A stretch of DNA of 64,000 nt, taken from contig JABSRB010000011.1 in the NCBI GenBank assembly GCA_013215375.1, positions 1 through 64,000 on the forward strand, given 5' to 3'. Shown here piece after piece: positions 9,272-60,030 of the stretch (the stretch's first letter is position 1; each line of letters starts with the position of its first letter). Source of the DNA: Oceanospirillaceae bacterium. GTDB taxonomy: Bacteria > Pseudomonadota > Gammaproteobacteria > Pseudomonadales > Balneatricaceae. The notes beneath the pieces were generated by a model. The model searched no databases. It saw nothing but the letters and a program-made list of their open reading frames with translations, and was not told the origin of the DNA. A program made the position numbers and the translations under genes.

Positions 9272-9477
9272 ATATTCATCTCTGGTTCATAATTTGCGTT
9301 GCTTGAATATATCGCTGTTCAAAACTAAACACAACAACAGCTATAATCGAATACTTACCTAAATCAAAAAACTAACATGAGACAGGATATTTTTATCACT
9401 ACGATATAAGAATAAATTAGCTATTTTTACTACCACTGGACACTATTGCAGAAAAAGCTTATGCATCCCACAAACCT

Positions 9478-9753
9478 AGCTACGGAGCCACCAATCCCCT
9501 TGTATTGCCGCCGGAGCGATTTACCAAATTGGCGAGTAGAGCGACAGGACGTCGCGAAAAGCGAAGTTGAGCCATGGATGGCGAATCTGAGCGGCCGCCA
9601 ATTTTGTGAATCGTGGAGGAGCTTTGAGGCAATAGTAGGGCGAAATTTTTATGTACAGGATGTACGGTATTTGGCGGTGGCAAGGATGCCAAAGAGCCTC
9701 TTTGGTTCGGTTTCTTTTTTTCGCAAAAAGAAATGAACTCGACGCAGTCGAAA
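9478..9753. repeat. Hairpin-mosaic dispersed repeat, copy A
   Basis: About 275 bp that recur in inverted orientation at 59552-60030. The unit runs from CTACGGAGCCA to the GACGCAGTCGAAA end. It is built from short palindromes separated by spacers: GCGAC/GTCGC (9541-9555), GCCAT-GG-ATGGC (9571-9582), GTACA-GGA-TGTAC (9653-9665), GGCA-AGGA-TGCC (9679-9690) and TCGAC-GCA-GTCGA near 9738. A 96-codon ORF crosses it but has no independent support. Confidence 0.75.
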
Positions 9754-9909
9754 CCGCACTTAAATCCATTGAACTAAAACATCAAAAAAGAAATCAGTAA
9801 AAGTCTTTTAAATAATAGAAACGGCAAAAATCACAAGTTTTAAATAGATAAATTTATAGAGTAATAAAACAGAAGATACAACGAAGAAAATTATAACGGG
9901 GAGATTGGA

Positions 9910-10018
9910 AGCAACTCCGCCAGCCACATCCCGGCACACGAAGAGGTCGCTGTGGCTGCTCCCTTCCAGGCCTGACCAAGTTCACGACTTATCGTTGCGG
10001 GAGGACCGACAGAGCTAC
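9910..10018 (-). ncRNA. ffs: Signal recognition particle 4.5S RNA
   Basis: The minus strand carries the conserved apical domain of small bacterial SRP RNA: GGTCAGGCCTGGAAGGGAGC followed by AGCC, and on the other arm GTGTGCCGGGATGTGGCTGG, as in E. coli 4.5S RNA (GGTCAGGTCCGGAAGGAAGC). Flanking strands CTCTGTCGGTCCTCCCGCAA and GGCTGGCGGAGT pair to close the rod. It binds Ffh and targets nascent membrane proteins. Exact mature ends are estimated; a 5' precursor extension of about 30 nt is expected from the promoter position. Confidence 0.93.
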
Positions 10019-20952: not shown

Positions 20953-21875
20953 CTATTTGTAGTTCTCTATAATGCGGGCTAACTCACCATTTTCTTTCAT
21001 AACAGCAAGCTCGAGATTAAACATTTTCACAAATGGCTGCCATTTTTTAGTAAACATGAATCGGTAATCAAAACTGCTGATCGCCTTATCTGATATGTAG
21101 AATTTGTCCTGCATCGTCGGATTGTTTTTTATAATCCACCTACCCACTAAGTCCGATACTATGGTGGCTTGACTGCGATGACTCAAAGTCTTTTTTAACA
21201 TCAGCAACTCTCCAATAGCCTCTGTTGTTTGTATTTCATTGCGATCAAAATACTGTTGCAAATTTGGATAGCTACAACCTAAATGAATACCTTGGAGGCT
21301 GTCCAAGAACTGCGATCGTAGCGAGAGCAAGATTATTTGAGGAGAATAGCGTGCTATTTAACGATAATTAGCGGTAATTTTAACCAAATAGGCTTGGTCG
21401 CAGTAGATTAGTCTGTTCTCGGACAGCCTCCTAACCTCTTGCCAAACAGATCACTGGCTTGGGTATAGTCAACGGGTTTGTTGATAGGAGAGAATAGTAC
21501 GTCTTTAACCACCAACACCACATCGCTAAAGATATATTTATCTGCTGCAGTCACCCACTCTTTAGCGCTCGCTGATGCATCAATACTGCCTCTGTCTAGC
21601 CTCTTCTCTACTCGTTTTTTAGGCACTTGCACGAACTTGACGATATAATTATGTTTACGCGCGACATGTTCCAGCACATCCACCATAATTCCAGAGCTAT
21701 CTCCCTGCGAACTATTAATTAGATAGGGCGGGTAGCCTGTTGAAGAGGTGTTAAATACCAGTATTTCCGCTGTCAACTCAACGCTAAATACAACAAAAAT
21801 AGTGACTAGTAAATAAGTCCAGTTGTTCACATAACATCCTTGGATTGATTGTTTTAAGTATAAAAAGTGAAACAT
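20953..21875 (-). pseudogene. Periplasmic binding-protein gene interrupted by a MITE
   Basis: Two ORF halves encode one family 3 solute-binding-like protein. The 5' half (21408-21875) has a signal anchor, STGYPPYLIN and GIMVDVLEHVARKHNY, and ends in LFGKRLG. The 3' half (20953-21330) resumes at IHLGCSYPNLQQYF and runs to ELARIIENYK. Removing the 136-bp element at 21295-21430 and one 4-bp target copy joins them in frame as KRLGIHLG, giving an intact 260-residue protein. The gene is therefore a recent insertional mutant. The ligand is unknown and no transporter genes are adjacent. Confidence 0.85.
21295..21430. mobile_element. IS5-like MITE, copy 1 (136 bp)
   Basis: Terminal inverted repeats GAGGCTGTCC(A/G)AGAAC lie at both ends, flanked by CTTG and CTAA, which fit a 4-bp YTAR-type target (one copy mutated). 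It carries no ORF. It is a shorter, inverted relative of 23156-23379; the interior from TAATCTACTGCGACCAAGCC to the TAGCACGCTATT segment is shared, and about 90 bp are missing here. Confidence 0.85.
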
Positions 21876-23091: not shown

Positions 23092-23400
23092 AAAGACCCC
23101 CAGGGAAAACCTTTTCGATAAGGCCTACCTTCACTTGGTGAAAGGGGTTTGCTAAGAGCCTGTCCGAGAACAGACTAATCTACTGTGACCAAGCCTATTT
23201 GGTTAAAATTAACGCTCATTATCGTTAAATAGCACGCTATTATTCGGCATGTCCCTATGCCTCACCCCTTCGGGGCTGGCATGATAAATTGTTCCAGACA
23301 ATTTATTCGCCTCAAATGATCGCTGATTTTTCCTCAAATAGCCTTGCTCTCGCTACGATCGCAGTTCTCGGACAGGCTCCTAGTCACTTTGGCGGAATAA
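23092..23400. repeat. Dispersed intergenic repeat (head part), split by a MITE
   Basis: The sequence AAAGACCCCCAGGG at 23092 and CCTAGTCACTTTGGC at 23380 matches, with divergence, the head of the repeat seen intact at 39778-39877 and 51294-51345 (AAAGATCCCCGGGGC ... CCTAGTGACTATTGGC). The MITE at 23156-23379 sits in its CTAG. Confidence 0.55.
23156..23379. mobile_element. IS5-like MITE, copy 2 (224 bp)
   Basis: Terminal inverted repeats GAGCCTGTCCGAGAAC / GTTCTCGGACAGGCTC, flanked by CTAA and CTAG, a YTAR-type 4-bp target. It holds no ORF, so it must be moved in trans. Relative to copy 1 it has an extra internal block (about 23255-23335) with its own small stem (CACCCCTTCGGGG). It lies in a copy of the dispersed repeat. 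Confidence 0.85.
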
Positions 23401-25899: not shown

Positions 25900-28761
25900 A
25901 TGTTAGAGTACTTCGACCCCAGTAAAGACTTAGGTACGCCGGCAATATTCAGCGCGACCTCCATTACACTTGATATTGATGGCAACAGCATTAGCGTCCC
26001 CGAGGGCACTTCTGTGTTGCGCGCAGCCGCCCTTTACAACATTAATATCCCCAAGTTGTGTGCGACCGATAGTTTAGAGCCCTTTGGTTCCTGTCGTTTG
26101 TGTGCAGTGCAAATTGAAGGGCGTCGCGGCTATCCTGCGGCCTGCACCACACCGGTGAGCGAAGGCATGCAAGTGGTCACACAAAACACTAAGCTGGCTA
26201 AACTACGGCGCAATGTGATGGAGTTATATATCTCCGATCACCCACTAGATTGCCTAACTTGTCCCGCTAATGGTGATTGCGAACTACAAGACATGGCCGG
26301 TGCTGTAGGCCTGCGCGAAGTACGTTACGGCTTTAATGGCAGTAATCATTTAGATGCCCCCACCGATGACTCCAATCCCTATTTTAGTTTTGATGCTAGC
26401 AAGTGCATTGTCTGTTCACGCTGTGTACGCGCCTGTGAAGAAGTACAAGGCACTTTTGCACTGACCATTGACGGTCGCGGCTTTGATTCCAAAGTCAGCG
26501 CGGGGGTCAACCAAGATTTTATAGATTCAGATTGTGTCTCCTGTGGTGCCTGCGTGCAAGCTTGCCCCACCTCAACCTTAATGGAAAAGAGCGTCATCGA
26601 ACAAGGTCAACCCGAGCACTCTATTGTCACTACTTGTGCTTACTGTGGTGTTGGCTGTTCGTTCGAAGCGCAGATGCAAGGCGATCAAGTGATTCGCATG
26701 GTCCCCTACAAAGGCGGCGAGGCCAATCAGGGGCATTCCTGTGTAAAAGGCCGTTTTGCCTTTGGCTATGCCACCCATAAAGACCGCATCAAAGCGCCGA
26801 TGATTCGCGACCATATCGACCAGCCTTGGCGCGAGGTAAGTTGGGATGAAGCGTTCAGCTTTGCCGCTGCCAAAATCAAGGGAATTCAGAAAAAATACGG
26901 GCGCGAGAGCGTTGGTGGTATCACCTCTTCGCGCTGTACCAACGAAGAAACCTACCTAGTACAGAAGCTGATTCGCACCGCCTTTGGCAACAACAATACC
27001 GATACTTGCGCCAGAGTTTGTCACAGCCCCACCGGTTTTGGTTTAAAAACTACCTTGGGAGAGTCCGCCGGCACCCAGACCTTTGACTCAGTCAGAGAAG
27101 CCGATTGCATTATGGTAATAGGTGCTAACCCCACCGATGCTCACCCAGTATTTGGCTCGTTAATGCGCCGCCGCTTGCGCGAGGGTGCCAGTTTAATTGT
27201 GGTGGACCCCAGAGATATTGACTTATTAGCCACCCCTCACCTCAATCAGGCGATACATTTGCAACTGCGCCCGGGCACCAATGTGGCTCTGATTAATGCG
27301 CTGGCGCATGTTATCGCCACGCAAGAGTTGCTAGACAAAGATTTTATTGCCAAGCGATGTGCTAGCGATGCCTTTGAGCAATGGCTGGCCTTTATCAGCG
27401 AAAGCCGTAACTCCCCTGAAGAGACAGAAGCAATCACCGGAGTAGCCCCCGATAAAGTCAGAAGTGCTGCAAGGCTTTATGCCACCGTTGGCAATGGTGC
27501 CATTTTCTATGGCTTAGGGGTTACCGAACATTCACAGGGCTCCACCATGGTGATGGGTATCGCCAATTTGGCGCTGGCCACTGGTAACTTGGGCCGCCTA
27601 GGAGTAGGTGTTAACCCACTGCGTGGGCAAAATAACGTGCAGGGCTCCTGCGATATGGGTTCATTCCCTCACGAGTTACCTGGCTATCAACATGTGGGAG
27701 AGCAACAAGTACGGGATAAATTTGAAGCCGCCTGGAAGGTTAAAATTGATCCAGAGCCGGGTCTGCGAATTCCCAATATGTTTGACGCTGCCCTCAACGG
27801 CACTTTCAAAGGTTTGTACGTACAGGGCGAAGATATCGCTCAATCCGACCCCAATACTCAGCACGTAGAAAAGGCGCTGTGCTCACTGGAATGTTTGATC
27901 GTACAAGATATCTTCCTCAACGAAACCGCCAAATTTGCCCACGTATTGCTGCCAGGTGCCACCTTCCTTGAAAAAGACGGTACTTTCACCAACGCCGAGC
28001 GTCGCATTAACCGCGTGCGCAAGGTAATGCCACCCTTGGCAGGGCTCGCAGACTGGGAGGTGACCTTAGGTCTCTCTAAGGCACTGGGTTATGAAATGCA
28101 CTACGATCACCCCAGCGAGATAATGGATGAGATTGCGCAGCTAACGCCAACCTTCAGCGGAGTTAGTTACCAGAAACTTGAAGAGCTCGGCAGCATTCAG
28201 TGGCCCTGTAATGAGCAGCACCCACTGGGCACTCCAACCATGCACGTCGAAGACTTCCCGATTGGTAAAGGCAATTTCGCCATCACTGAGTTTATCCCGA
28301 CCCAAGAGCGCAGCACACGCCGTCTGCCACTACTGTTGACCACTGGCCGTATTTTGTCTCAGTACAACGTTGGCGCGCAGACACGCCGCACACAGAATAT
28401 GACCTGGCACAGCGAAGACGTACTTGAAGTGCATCCACACGATGCCTTGGAGCGTGGTATTAATGATGGCGATTGGCTAGGCATCACCAGCCGTGCTGGC
28501 AACACGGTACTTCGTGCTAAAATTAGTGAGCGCATGCAACCGGGGATTGTCTACACGACATTCCACCATCCCGGCAGTGGCGCCAATGTTATCACCACTG
28601 ACAATTCTGACTGGGCCACTAACTGCCCAGAGTATAAAGTGACGGCCGTGCAAGTTGAAAAAGTATCGCAGCCTTCGCGCTGGCAAAAAGCCTTCCAAGA
28701 CAGTGATAAAAAACAGCAGCAACTGTTAAAAGGCAAGCAAACGACGTCAGTTGATGTTTAA
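25900..28761 (+). CDS. fdsA: NAD-dependent formate dehydrogenase alpha subunit (molybdenum/tungsten)
   Basis: A 953-residue catalytic subunit that oxidises formate to CO2. From the N-terminus: a [2Fe-2S] domain (CATDSLEPFGSCRLC), a His-Cys-type cluster block (HPLDCLTCPANGDC), two [4Fe-4S] motifs (CIVCSRCVRAC and CVSCGACVQAC), the formate-dehydrogenase [4Fe-4S] site CAYCGVGC, then the bis-MGD domain. The metal ligand is Cys (ARVCHSPTGFG), not selenocysteine, and His follows directly as in active formate dehydrogenases. It begins only one base after the fdsB stop. Length and order match FdsA of Cupriavidus and Rhodobacter. Confidence 0.95.
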   Translation: MLEYFDPSKDLGTPAIFSATSITLDIDGNSISVPEGTSVLRAAALYNINIPKLCATDSLEPFGSCRLCAVQIEGRRGYPAACTTPVSEGMQVVTQNTKLAKLRRNVMELYISDHPLDCLTCPANGDCELQDMAGAVGLREVRYGFNGSNHLDAPTDDSNPYFSFDASKCIVCSRCVRACEEVQGTFALTIDGRGFDSKVSAGVNQDFIDSDCVSCGACVQACPTSTLMEKSVIEQGQPEHSIVTTCAYCGVGCSFEAQMQGDQVIRMVPYKGGEANQGHSCVKGRFAFGYATHKDRIKAPMIRDHIDQPWREVSWDEAFSFAAAKIKGIQKKYGRESVGGITSSRCTNEETYLVQKLIRTAFGNNNTDTCARVCHSPTGFGLKTTLGESAGTQTFDSVREADCIMVIGANPTDAHPVFGSLMRRRLREGASLIVVDPRDIDLLATPHLNQAIHLQLRPGTNVALINALAHVIATQELLDKDFIAKRCASDAFEQWLAFISESRNSPEETEAITGVAPDKVRSAARLYATVGNGAIFYGLGVTEHSQGSTMVMGIANLALATGNLGRLGVGVNPLRGQNNVQGSCDMGSFPHELPGYQHVGEQQVRDKFEAAWKVKIDPEPGLRIPNMFDAALNGTFKGLYVQGEDIAQSDPNTQHVEKALCSLECLIVQDIFLNETAKFAHVLLPGATFLEKDGTFTNAERRINRVRKVMPPLAGLADWEVTLGLSKALGYEMHYDHPSEIMDEIAQLTPTFSGVSYQKLEELGSIQWPCNEQHPLGTPTMHVEDFPIGKGNFAITEFIPTQERSTRRLPLLLTTGRILSQYNVGAQTRRTQNMTWHSEDVLEVHPHDALERGINDGDWLGITSRAGNTVLRAKISERMQPGIVYTTFHHPGSGANVITTDNSDWATNCPEYKVTAVQVEKVSQPSRWQKAFQDSDKKQQQLLKGKQTTSVDV

Positions 28762-28764
28762 GTT

Positions 28765-28814
28765 GGAAATAAATCTTGGATGAATTAGGCGAAACCTAAT
28801 TCATCTCTACTAAT
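28765..28814. repeat. Dispersed repeat tail with 11-bp stem between fdsA and fdhD
   Basis: GATGAATTAGG and CCTAATTCATC form a perfect 11-bp stem around CGAAA (28779-28805). The unit GGAAATAAATC ... CTAATTCATCTCTA matches the tails at 40025, 40120 and 51390. Here it lies inside the operon, so it may tune the fdsA/fdhD mRNA ratio. Confidence 0.65.
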
Positions 28815-39777: not shown

Positions 39778-40075
39778 ATAAAGATCCCCGGGGCAAGCCC
39801 TCTCGCTTAGCGAGCCTTCACTGACGGATGCGGGGTATTCCTAGTGACTATTGGCCTTACAAATTCACATCCCAAGGAGGCTGTCGCAAAAGGTAGCGAA
39901 CGATGATATGGCAAGGCAAAAACTGGCGAAATAGCGGAATTTATAGTTATAAATGAGCATTTTGAGCCAGTATTTAACGCCGAATTATCGAGTGCAGTAC
40001 TTTTGCGACACCCTCCAAGGGTCGGGGAAATAAATCCTTGATGATTTAGGCTCCGCCTAATTCATCTCTATTAAT
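39778..40075. repeat. Dispersed intergenic repeat, copy with MITE inserted
   Basis: The composite unit runs AAAGATCCCCGGGGC, a CTCGC/GCGAG stem, CCTAGTGACTATTGGCCTTA, CAAATTCAC..CCCAAGG, GGAAATAAATCCTTGATGAT and GGCTCCGCCTAATTCATCTC. The TTAGGC..GCCTAA part is a short hairpin. The MITE at 39878-40014 splits this copy. Related copies lie at 40076-40170, 51294-51430, 28765-28814 and 23092-23400. Confidence 0.75.
39878..40014. mobile_element. MITE with AGGSTGTCGCAAAAG ends (137 bp)
   Basis: The ends AGGCTGTCGCAAAAG and CTTTTGCGACACCCT are inverted repeats with one mismatch. They are flanked by the 6-bp direct repeat CCAAGG (39872-39877 and 40015-40020). No ORF. The adjacent repeat copy at 40076-40170 shows the same site without the insertion (CCCCAAGGGACTGGGAAATA), which confirms the boundaries. 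It is unrelated to the IS5-like MITE. Confidence 0.85.
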
Positions 40076-40170
40076 TCCTAGTGACTATTAGCCTTACAAA
40101 TTCACGCCCCAAGGGACTGGGAAATAAATCCTTGATGATTTAGGCTCCGCCTAATTCATCTCTATTAAAG
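40076..40170. repeat. Dispersed intergenic repeat, uninterrupted copy
   Basis: It repeats CCTAGTGACTATTAGCCTTA, CAAATTCACGCCCCAAGGGA, GGAAATAAATCCTTGATGAT and GGCTCCGCCTAATTCATCTC from the copy beside it. Its right end (CTATTAAAG) supplies the stop codon of the redoxin gene. Confidence 0.75.
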
Positions 40171-51293: not shown

Positions 51294-51430
51294 AAAGATC
51301 CTCGGGGCAGCCCTCTCGCTTCGTGAAGCGAGGTATCCATAGTTACTTTGGTTCTTACAAGCTGACGCCCCAGGAGCGGAGCATTAAACCCTTGAAGAAA
51401 TAGGCTCCGCCTAATTCATCTCTATTAAAG
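51294..51430. repeat. Dispersed intergenic repeat, copy C
   Basis: AAAGATCCTCGGGGCAGCCC, a CTCGCTTCGTGAAGCGAG stem, AGTTACTTTGGTTCTTACAA, GACGCCCCAGGAG, CCCTTGAAGAAATAGGCTCC and CTAATTCATCTCTATTAAAG match the unit at 39778-40075 in order. This is the longest stretch of interest in the 490-bp spacer before the binding protein. Confidence 0.7.
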
Positions 51431-59463: not shown

Positions 59464-60030
59464 TTCTTTTATGTACAGGAAGTACGGTATAGCGCGGTGG
59501 CATGGATGCCAAAGAGCGTATAATGGTTTAAGATCAATATATTGAAAGATTTTTCGACTGCGTCGAGTTCATTTCTTTTTACGAAAAAAAGAAACGGAAC
59601 CAAAGAGGCTCTTTGCCATCCTTGGCACCGCCAAATTACTTACATGGATGTAAGTACTTAGTTTTTGTCGGGAACAAAAAAACTGACCGTACATCCTGTA
59701 CAAATACGCTCTATGACATCCATGTCACCGCGTTATACCGTACATCCTGTACAAATACGCTCTATGACATCCATGTCACCGCGTTATACCGTACATCCTG
59801 TACATAAAATTTCGACCTGCTATTGCCTCCGCCGTTCATTCACATCCATGTGATCACGGCATTTGTAATTCCTTTTACATCAGACTCTTCCTCAATTCAC
59901 AAAATTGATGACCGCTCAGATTCGCCATCCATGGCTCAACTTCGCTTTTCGCGACGTCCTGTCGCTCCACCCATCAATTTAGCAAATTGCTCCGGCGGCA
60001 ATACAAGGGATTTTATGGCTCCGTAGTGTA
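59464..60030. repeat. Hairpin-mosaic dispersed repeat, copy B (rearranged, inverted)
   Basis: This region holds the unit of 9478-9753 in inverted orientation (59552-60030), plus a second partial copy to its left (59464-59570) and extra palindromes in between. The hairpins, stem-loop-stem, are GGCAT-GG-ATGCC (59499-59510), TACTTACAT-GG-ATGTAAGTA (59637-59656), GTACA-TCC-TGTAC (59689), GACAT-CC-ATGTC (59715), TCACAT-CC-ATGTGA (59840-59853), GCCAT-CC-ATGGC (59934-59945) and GCGAC-GTCCT-GTCGC (59961-59975). Small ORFs crossing it are artefacts. Confidence 0.8.
59686..59804. repeat. 51-bp tandem repeat inside the hairpin mosaic
   Basis: Period 51 bp, 2.3 copies: each unit starts ACCGTACATCCTGTAC, continues AAATACGCTCTATGACATCC and ends CATGTCACCGCGTTAT. 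Both palindromes (GTACATCCTGTAC, GACATCCATGTC) are in every full unit. Confidence 0.85.

Follow-up and report, generated by a model that had tools for sequence, protein, structure and literature searches.

Dispersed repeats with CsrA-type hairpins in an Oceanospirillaceae genome, many of them directly behind intrinsic terminators

Here we analyzed a 64,000-nucleotide stretch of DNA (the window) from an Oceanospirillaceae bacterium, whose genome assembly holds 5.0 Mb in 96 contigs, and found in it two copies of a repeat whose hairpins are, by sequence and fold, CsrA-type sites. The CD half of the repeat is the Rfam TwoAYGGAY RNA (RF01731), present here as a high-copy dispersed repeat. The other component, BA, is a 49-nt unit of two hairpins that occurs singly or in tandem with a 51-bp period, and most stand-alone BA arrays are in sense orientation and begin where an intrinsic terminator has its T-run. 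The anchoring of BA arrays at intrinsic terminators was unexpected. BA has no Rfam match at threshold in the loci scanned. On balance, we favor the reading that these are RNA arrays dispersed in the genome that titrate CsrA, owe their transcription to read-through and have spread by a terminator-directed process, with transcription, CsrA binding, titration and the insertion mechanism being what we infer.

Results

Hairpins and anatomy of the repeat

A preliminary description of the window had reported hairpins with a common GGA core and differing stems at 9478-9753 and 59464-60030, and both groups are present (Table 1). On the strand that carries GGA the constant part is CA(N)GGAYG, and the stems vary with compensation. 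The match of copy 1 extends slightly further, over 9470-9760. The palindromes listed in that description exist, but the one near 9680 in copy 1 has the loop AGGA and the stem TGGCA/TGCCA, and the GGCAT/ATGCC stem belongs to copy 2. Also missed were the restriction of GGA to one strand within a module, the composite nature of copy 2 with units in both orientations, the likeness of the constant loop to a CsrA/RsmA-type site, and the identity of one half with the known TwoAYGGAY RNA.

Table 1 Features of the two repeat copies in the window.
Feature	Position	Strand	Evidence or remark
Long element of repeat copy 1, with CD half, BA module and tail hairpins	9470..9760	+	CA(N)GGAYG-type hairpins all with GGA on +; 28-copy alignment
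TwoAYGGAY RNA (RF01731) match	9500..9627	+	42.3 bits, gathering score 43, E 1.3e-5
Hairpin C, GCGAC-AGGAC-GUCGC, CsrB-like CAGGACG	9541..9555	+	3/5 pairs change on both sides among copies
Hairpin D, GCC-AUGGAU-GGC	9571..9582	+	Outward stem with two tandem G.A mismatches
BA module, hairpins GUACAGGAUGUAC and GGCAAGGAUGCC	9652..9700	+	Model R1 72.9 bits; TTTTTA in front; covariation
Hairpin GTACA-GGA-TGTAC, copy 1	9653-9665		
Hairpin TGGCA-AGGA-TGCCA, copy 1	9678-9691		
Tail hairpin TTTCTTTTT...AAAAAGAAA	9711-9733 (tail 9711..9751)	+	Among own-genome copies stem mostly constant, loop variable
Tail hairpin TCGAC-GCA-GTCGA	9739-9751	+	Copy alignment; similar tails in other gammaproteobacteria
BA unit, orientation opposite to remainder of copy 2	59472..59520	+	R1 70.9 bits
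Hairpin TGGCAT-GG-ATGCCA, copy 2	59498-59511		
Tail and adjoining element part, copy 2	59552..59645	-	93% to copy 1
BA unit interrupted by additional hairpins, including TACTTACAT-GG-ATGTAAGTA	59605..59702	-	R1 41.8 bits
Hairpin TGCCA-TCCT-TGGCA, copy 2	59614-59627		
Hairpin TACTTACAT-GG-ATGTAAGTA, copy 2	59637-59656		GGA on + strand
Hairpin GTACA-TCC-TGTAC, copy 2, three times	59689, 59740, 59791		
BA unit, 51-bp tandem period	59705..59753	-	R1 74.3 bits
Hairpin TGACAT-CC-ATGTCA, copy 2, twice	59714-59727, 59765-59778		
BA unit, 51-bp tandem period	59756..59804	-	R1 74.3 bits
Degenerate BA-like unit with TCACAT/ATGTGA hairpin	59831..59879	-	R1 28.9 bits
Hairpin TCACAT-CC-ATGTGA, copy 2	59840-59853		
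CD half of copy 2	59885..60026	-	88% to copy 1
TwoAYGGAY match, copy 2	59897..59985	-	39.4 bits, below gathering, E 1e-4
Hairpin GCCAT-CC-ATGGC, copy 2	59924-59935		
Hairpin GCGAC-GTCCT-GTCGC, copy 2	59951-59965		

Using an alignment of 28 copies, we determined the order of the long element: a start near TACGGAGCC, hairpin C (consensus GCGAC-AGGAY-GTCGC), hairpin D (GCC-ANGGAY-GGC) and a tail with the consensus TTTCTTTT...AAAAGAAA...CTCGAC..GTCGAAA. A BA unit of about 50 nt lies between a T-run and the tail in 11 of the 28 (one truncated), and two carry a 47-nt hairpin module as an insertion at D. The BA consensus is TGNNCA(N)GGAYGNNC-linker-stem-GG-NNNCANGGAYGNNN-ARGA-stem'; the second BA-module hairpin of copy 1 (GGCAAGGAUGCC) is enclosed by an outer stem with a GG/ARGA internal loop. 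Copy 2 is made up of a CD half, two BA units in 51-bp tandem, an interrupted BA, a degenerate BA and one BA in the opposite orientation. Inspection of the 28-copy alignment by eye, with element ends unmapped to the base, revealed no apparent terminal inverted repeats or target-site duplication of the kind found in MITEs, and no MITE-type terminal inverted repeats were apparent among 25 listed of the 52 inverted repeats in the window. In single folds, two window stretches showed no clear gain in stability over their shuffles (z -1.29 and -0.82), and the tandem BA stretch alone folds more stably (z -3.85).

Hairpins exceed chance expectation

Such hairpins are commoner in the genome than in controls, and their stems differ among copies; the preliminary description had named counts no higher than in shuffled sequence, or identical stems everywhere, as the outcomes that would speak against a repeat family. 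Copy 1 (9470-9760) has 69 matches in its own genome. Throughout the genome, CATCCATG occurs 247 times and its reversed word 76 times. Within 447 kb of this genome, 38 of 67 occurrences of CATCCATG are flanked beyond the core by two or more additional complementary pairs, as are 0 of 9 of the reversed word, a small control; the repeat copies are also related to one another. This sample comprises the window and 20 stretches, and its absolute hairpin density is biased because some of these were picked where copies had already been located. Loop GGA/TCC was found 31 times versus 10.7 in Markov shuffles and loop CC/GG 76 times versus 42, which places them second and third in enrichment after CGAA (10 versus 0.7). 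Raw counts of CATCCATG exceed those of the reversed word in most relatives, with the reverse in genome G033 (53 versus 130); since the two words are not a clean control pair and G033 is an exception, we relied on the hairpins instead.

The pattern TTTTATGNNCAN{0,1}GGAYG matched in 45 of 369 genomes. We inspected one locus from each of 30 of these 45, and 8 of the 30 have a paired stem, 7 a paired stem together with a terminator; single matches are mostly chance. Genomes with multiple matches stood out, with counts against the reversed control of 38 versus 0 in the own genome, 19 versus 0 in G327, 13 versus 1 in G136 and 7 versus 0 in G176.

Stems covary around constant loops

The earlier proposal that stem changes are compensated on both sides, and so point to selection or copying of the folded structure, is supported by strong covariation in the copy alignments. 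For the BA module, 44 sequences from the own genome and other genera (alignment A1) have 90% of their cells paired. In A1, which includes loci picked by a pattern fixing the B hairpin and parts of A, 60 cells had changed on both sides versus 27.2 after shuffling, with none of 500 shuffles reaching this number and slid controls giving 2-14. For the CD module (alignment A2, 24 rows from the own genome, 20 of them distinct), 16 cells had changed on both sides versus 2.6, again with 0 of 500 reaching it, and slid controls gave 0-2. A BA subset with more divergent genera (A3, 30 modules), chosen as 24 of the 44 A1 rows plus 6 of 9 further loci and thus including some picked by the same pattern, had a covariation score of 0.413 versus 0.109 (0 of 500; slid at most 0.047). 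BA modules from further genomes (A4, 23 modules, 21 distinct), which were found with and fitted to the model and so lean to it, scored 0.586 versus 0.228 (0 of 500; slid at most 0.158), with 57 cells changed on both sides versus 16.6. A measure of further pair types was not significant for CD (67 of 500) or for the further-genome BA modules (59 of 500). A1 holds 44 of 47 extracted modules, leaving aside two 50-mers and one with an indel, and A2 holds 24 of 28 elements, leaving aside two that have no CD half and two into which a module has been inserted.

The D helix contains two tandem G.A mismatches, and about half of the distinct copies have Watson-Crick pairs in place of the inner one. The G.A columns in A2 are 25-26/51-52, joined by 31-32/45-46 in about half of the distinct copies. 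In some BA-like units (L265, L107, L128) the sides of the internal loop are swapped (5' AAGGA, 3' GGT), with the outer stem still paired.

The CD half is TwoAYGGAY and the loops resemble CsrA sites

The TwoAYGGAY model has 24 matches in the own genome, 14 of them over the gathering score of 43 bits and the window copies just below it, and all 24 coincide with places matched by the copy 1 repeat. In the class sample it was found in 18 of 274 genomes, several of which reach the 9 candidates scored and so hold at least 9. Two BA stretches of copy 2 scored 19.8 and 18.9 bits against this model (E 3 and 4.7). TwoAYGGAY is included in a 2010 screen (PMC2864571), and a 2014 paper proposed it as a CsrA-binding sRNA and stated two tandem GAs (PMC4333381); its CsrA binding, a prediction, is thus already in print. 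Tandem G.A pairs in one stem, a TwoAYGGAY trait according to PMC4333381, are present in the CD half. When compared with the AYGGAY of the family, the D loop is AUGGAY or AGGGAU and the C loop is the five-letter AGGAY, so that the form overall is ANGGAY, not strictly AYGGAY. Rfam clan CL00106 holds both TwoAYGGAY and CsrB. In several other gammaproteobacteria (L079-L106), downstream of TwoAYGGAY come a tail hairpin and an ACTCGC...GCGAAA stem, variable in sequence yet paired; there the Rfam match stops short of the tail hairpin.

A site of the RsmE form reads A/UCANGGANGU/A. The SELEX consensus for CsrA is RUACARGGAUGU; 51 of 55 ligands carry GGA in the loop of a hairpin, loops are mostly of 6 nt, contiguous pairs mostly number at most 4, and the CsrB repeat is CAGGA(U/A/C)G (PMC7652899). 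The repeat cores CANGGAYG and CAGGAYG agree with both. Several GGA hairpins that fit the CsrA consensus lie near one another on one strand, a trait of CsrA-titrating RNAs that makes these elements candidates for that class. The own genome has one csrA-family match. No CsrB gene was found over the threshold of RF00018 (gathering score 71 bits) in the genome, where the best match, at 17.3 bits, lies at a BA array (L052).

Spread of the BA unit

With model R1 at E<=0.01 we found 72 BA units in the own genome, where 150 of 1571 candidates were scored; searches over 40 genomes scored 9-16 candidates each, and copy numbers are lower bounds because of these limited candidates. Model R2 placed BA in 49 of 369 genomes of the class and 39 of 272 genera, own included. 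In a phylum sample, BA was found in 26 of 398 genomes, 14 of which belong to one family of the same phylum but another class. The exact BA pattern was matched in 26 stretches, including Bermanella, Oceanospirillaceae, Colwellia, Osedax symbiont Rs1 and Alteromonadaceae Bs31. No Rfam family matched BA at gathering score in the window or 11 further loci. A search of eight loci at E<=1 gave two matches on or near arrays, CsrB at 17.3 bits (L052) and TwoAYGGAY at 38.4 bits (L112), both below threshold.

In one BA unit of the own genome, an IS110/IS1111-family transposase gene (PF01548, PF02371) lies inside the A hairpin (contig C52 near 11677; L214:2342-3358, minus strand). The insertion splits the CATGGAT core and has apparent subterminal inverted repeats.

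Most BA-only arrays lie behind terminators in sense orientation

Position at gene ends had been proposed as a check, and of 37 BA-only arrays in the own genome, 32 follow a gene on the same strand. Between codirectional genes of the own genome, 19 BA-only arrays are in sense orientation and 2 against, and convergent contexts outnumber divergent ones by 11 to 2; genes here were called as simple ORFs with a minimum of 90 aa, a context needs genes called on both sides, and two BA clusters that have no locus are unscored. There was no orientation bias in BA units beside a CD element (same/same 5, opposite/opposite 4) or in all hairpin clusters of the own genome pooled (11 versus 11). Hairpin clusters elsewhere lean to sense, with 10 versus 4 in other genomes and 6 versus 3 in named contigs.

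A T-run (at least 5 T among the last 9 bases before the array) marks the array start in 22 of 29 junctions picked among arrays with a same-strand upstream gene, for example ...GCCAGCGTTTGCTGGCTTTTTTA|TGTACAGG... A simple detector found a hairpin with T-run upstream of the first BA unit in 24 of 47 cases in the own genome, thereby missing about half, and in 17 of 26 on other contigs. The controls gave 0 of 23 for internal units and 16 of 3000 for random positions, which were drawn from all DNA, genes included. We also examined a wider set of 29 other genomes, with one locus each; these loci were found with the model and lean to it, and four (L286, L290, L291, L292) had already been inspected and used in A3. 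Here 11 of 29 are preceded by a hairpin with T-run, and a same-strand upstream gene is seen in 19 versus 9. Among the 18 loci at which no terminator was detected, 12 have other linkers (GAATG, CTTATG).

Two sites show presence and absence of arrays among congeners. At the dnaJ terminator (gene identity confirmed) the own genome bears a three-unit array, 5 of 6 congeners have the hairpin and T-run with no array behind, and G004 has one degenerate unit starting at the same base. The eno-ftsB interval (genes confirmed) holds an array in the own genome and G004 and none in the other five congeners; two other genomes of the family also have no array at the eno site. At both loci, model R2 found units in the own genome and G004 alone. 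In L232 (G029, from another family within the order), the eno terminator is immediately followed by an array of other CATGGACG hairpins.

Regarding the transcribed strand, a comparison of G.U with A.C pairs weakly favors RNA on the GGA strand (19 versus 8 and 25 versus 9, with a shuffled-arm ratio of 1.24). We discarded a test based on folding energy, in which 68 of 76 representative modules folded more stably on the GGA strand and the shuffles were equally biased (86%); it is uninformative because base composition explains the bias.

Discussion

A proposed role as dispersed CsrA decoys

In the reading that we favor, the GGA strand of each unit would fold into short hairpins with ANGGAY or AGGAY loops closed by C-G. 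Stems would be free to vary provided that pairing is kept, with the loops carrying the CsrA recognition sequence. The GGA strand would be transcribed, for BA chiefly through terminator read-through, and the read-through transcripts would bear the array and titrate CsrA, which would tie the availability of CsrA to how much many ordinary genes are transcribed. The arrays may have reached terminators by terminator-directed insertion or copying. Since they lie behind terminators, they could soak up CsrA when transcription runs on. In E. coli, the RNAs RrA, RrB and RrF are made by read-through of the first terminator and bind CsrA in vitro; rrn T1 terminates 87%, and deletion or overexpression of these RNAs is described as having modest effects only (PMC8144298). 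A site behind a strong terminator is a poor one for an abundant decoy, which speaks against titration, as does the unbiased orientation of the long elements in the own genome.

Alternative explanations

The sense anchoring of arrays behind terminators also looks like an insertion preference, and the way in which arrays insert, rather than any use of the RNA, could account for the sense bias. A terminator-targeted non-autonomous mobile element, whose hairpins serve mobility as folded single-stranded DNA or an RNA intermediate and whose CsrA likeness is incidental or self-regulatory, would account for the constant position and orientation behind many unrelated terminators, the tandem units, the presence and absence between congeners at two sites and the patchy distribution across families. 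Group IIC introns likewise insert at intrinsic terminators (PMC4424553). We nevertheless consider it fairly unlikely: the loops fit the CsrA consensus down to its free N and Y position, the CD half belongs to the CsrB clan, a unit of 49-51 nt is too small for a reverse transcriptase or transposase, no group II intron family reached gathering score in the window and 11 other loci, and no target duplication was noticed by eye. A repeat may both act as RNA and be mobile, and its orientation does not by itself tell the two apart. One combination, which we regard as speculative and rather doubtful, is a tiny mobile RNA-encoding element that homes sense-wise to the base just after an intrinsic terminator. 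It would thereby place CsrA decoys after dozens of ordinary genes, and terminator leakage across the whole transcriptome would determine the level of free CsrA.

For the long elements, the proposal of TwoAYGGAY as a CsrA-binding sRNA (PMC4333381) could suggest stand-alone CsrB/RsmZ-type sRNA genes with their own promoters. This seems distinctly unlikely given their many copies, the absence by eye of a terminator-like T-run at the 3' end in the 28-copy alignment, and their upstream regions. GacA-box-like sequence was not enriched upstream of 26 long elements, where the best box has 3 mismatches (in 4 of 26 regions) and random intervals reach 2 (in 4 of 300); in this the long elements are unlike CsrB-type genes. 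Template switching in replication repairs imperfect palindromes (quasi-palindrome correction), and in a neutral repeat with many copies in non-coding DNA it would yield compensated stems around constant cores, with no selection on the fold. This is very unlikely here, as covariation extends to nested stems on either side of an asymmetric internal loop whose unpaired letters are conserved, and disappears on sliding. G.A-type mismatches also persist, at two adjacent positions where 10 and 11 of 20 distinct D helices are unpaired; the constant part is a CsrA-type loop, and BA-only arrays are sense-biased. Classical REP/BIME DNA palindromes, mobilized by RAYT and serving as gyrase, IHF or Pol I sites, share with this repeat an intergenic and often gene-end location, a palindromic form and multiple copies. 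REP families retain their stem sequence. We rejected this most improbable of readings because here the stems vary while the loops stay constant, in agreement with the earlier judgment that the pattern is not a standard REP/BIME.

Comparison with known systems

The repeat resembles TwoAYGGAY, a predicted CsrA binder, in the match of its CD half, the two GGA-loop hairpins and the tandem G.A in one stem. It differs in that it is a dispersed repeat (24 matches), has pentaloop and N-variable loops and carries tail hairpins, to which 11 of the 28 aligned copies add a BA unit. With CsrB, CsrC, RsmY and RsmZ it shares arrays of CAGGAYG or CANGGAYG hairpins and AGGAG-type linkers, but here many small arrays are scattered in place of one regulated gene, the CsrB model gives 17.3 bits, and a GacA box was not found. 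RrA, RrB and RrF offer a CsrA-binding RNA behind the first terminator via read-through, which is shown there and would apply by analogy here; they are three copies behind rRNA operons, between dual terminators, whereas the present arrays follow many different genes. Group IIC introns are similar in their sense placement directly behind intrinsic terminators, as in most BA-only arrays, yet the units here are only about 50 nt (49-51) and have no Rfam intron match in the window and 11 loci. REP/BIME palindromes and RAYT-mobilized REPINs are likewise short, intergenic, high-copy and located at gene ends, with the difference that here the loop is constant and the stem variable. Among the open-licence PMC papers listed by our searches, we found no description of a dispersed, terminator-anchored repeat of CsrA sites.

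In many gammaproteobacteria, CsrA/RsmA governs motility, biofilm and central metabolism, and the decoys known for it come from a small number of dedicated sRNA genes. If tens of read-through decoy arrays do exist in many carriers, Csr regulation would be wired differently there, with a distributed, expression-weighted sponge in place of one CsrB gene, and part of it would be invisible to sRNA gene annotation. TwoAYGGAY, an Rfam family whose role is unassigned, and BA would then become testable CsrA ligands. The anchoring at terminators also raises the question of how a 50-nt unit gets to the base behind the U-tract.

Other features of the window

Near copy 1, a bacterial small SRP RNA gene lies at 9915-10011 on the minus strand. 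Long inverted repeats with 89-94% complementarity (21291-21433 and 23153-23383) flank a small gene cluster. A second interspersed repeat is found at 28748-28813, 40009-40074, 40103-40168 and 51363-51428, with a TAGGC-TCC-GCCTA hairpin and the tail TAATTCATCTCTATTAA in three of its four copies. A hairpin like this one stands immediately 5' of one BA array (L033).
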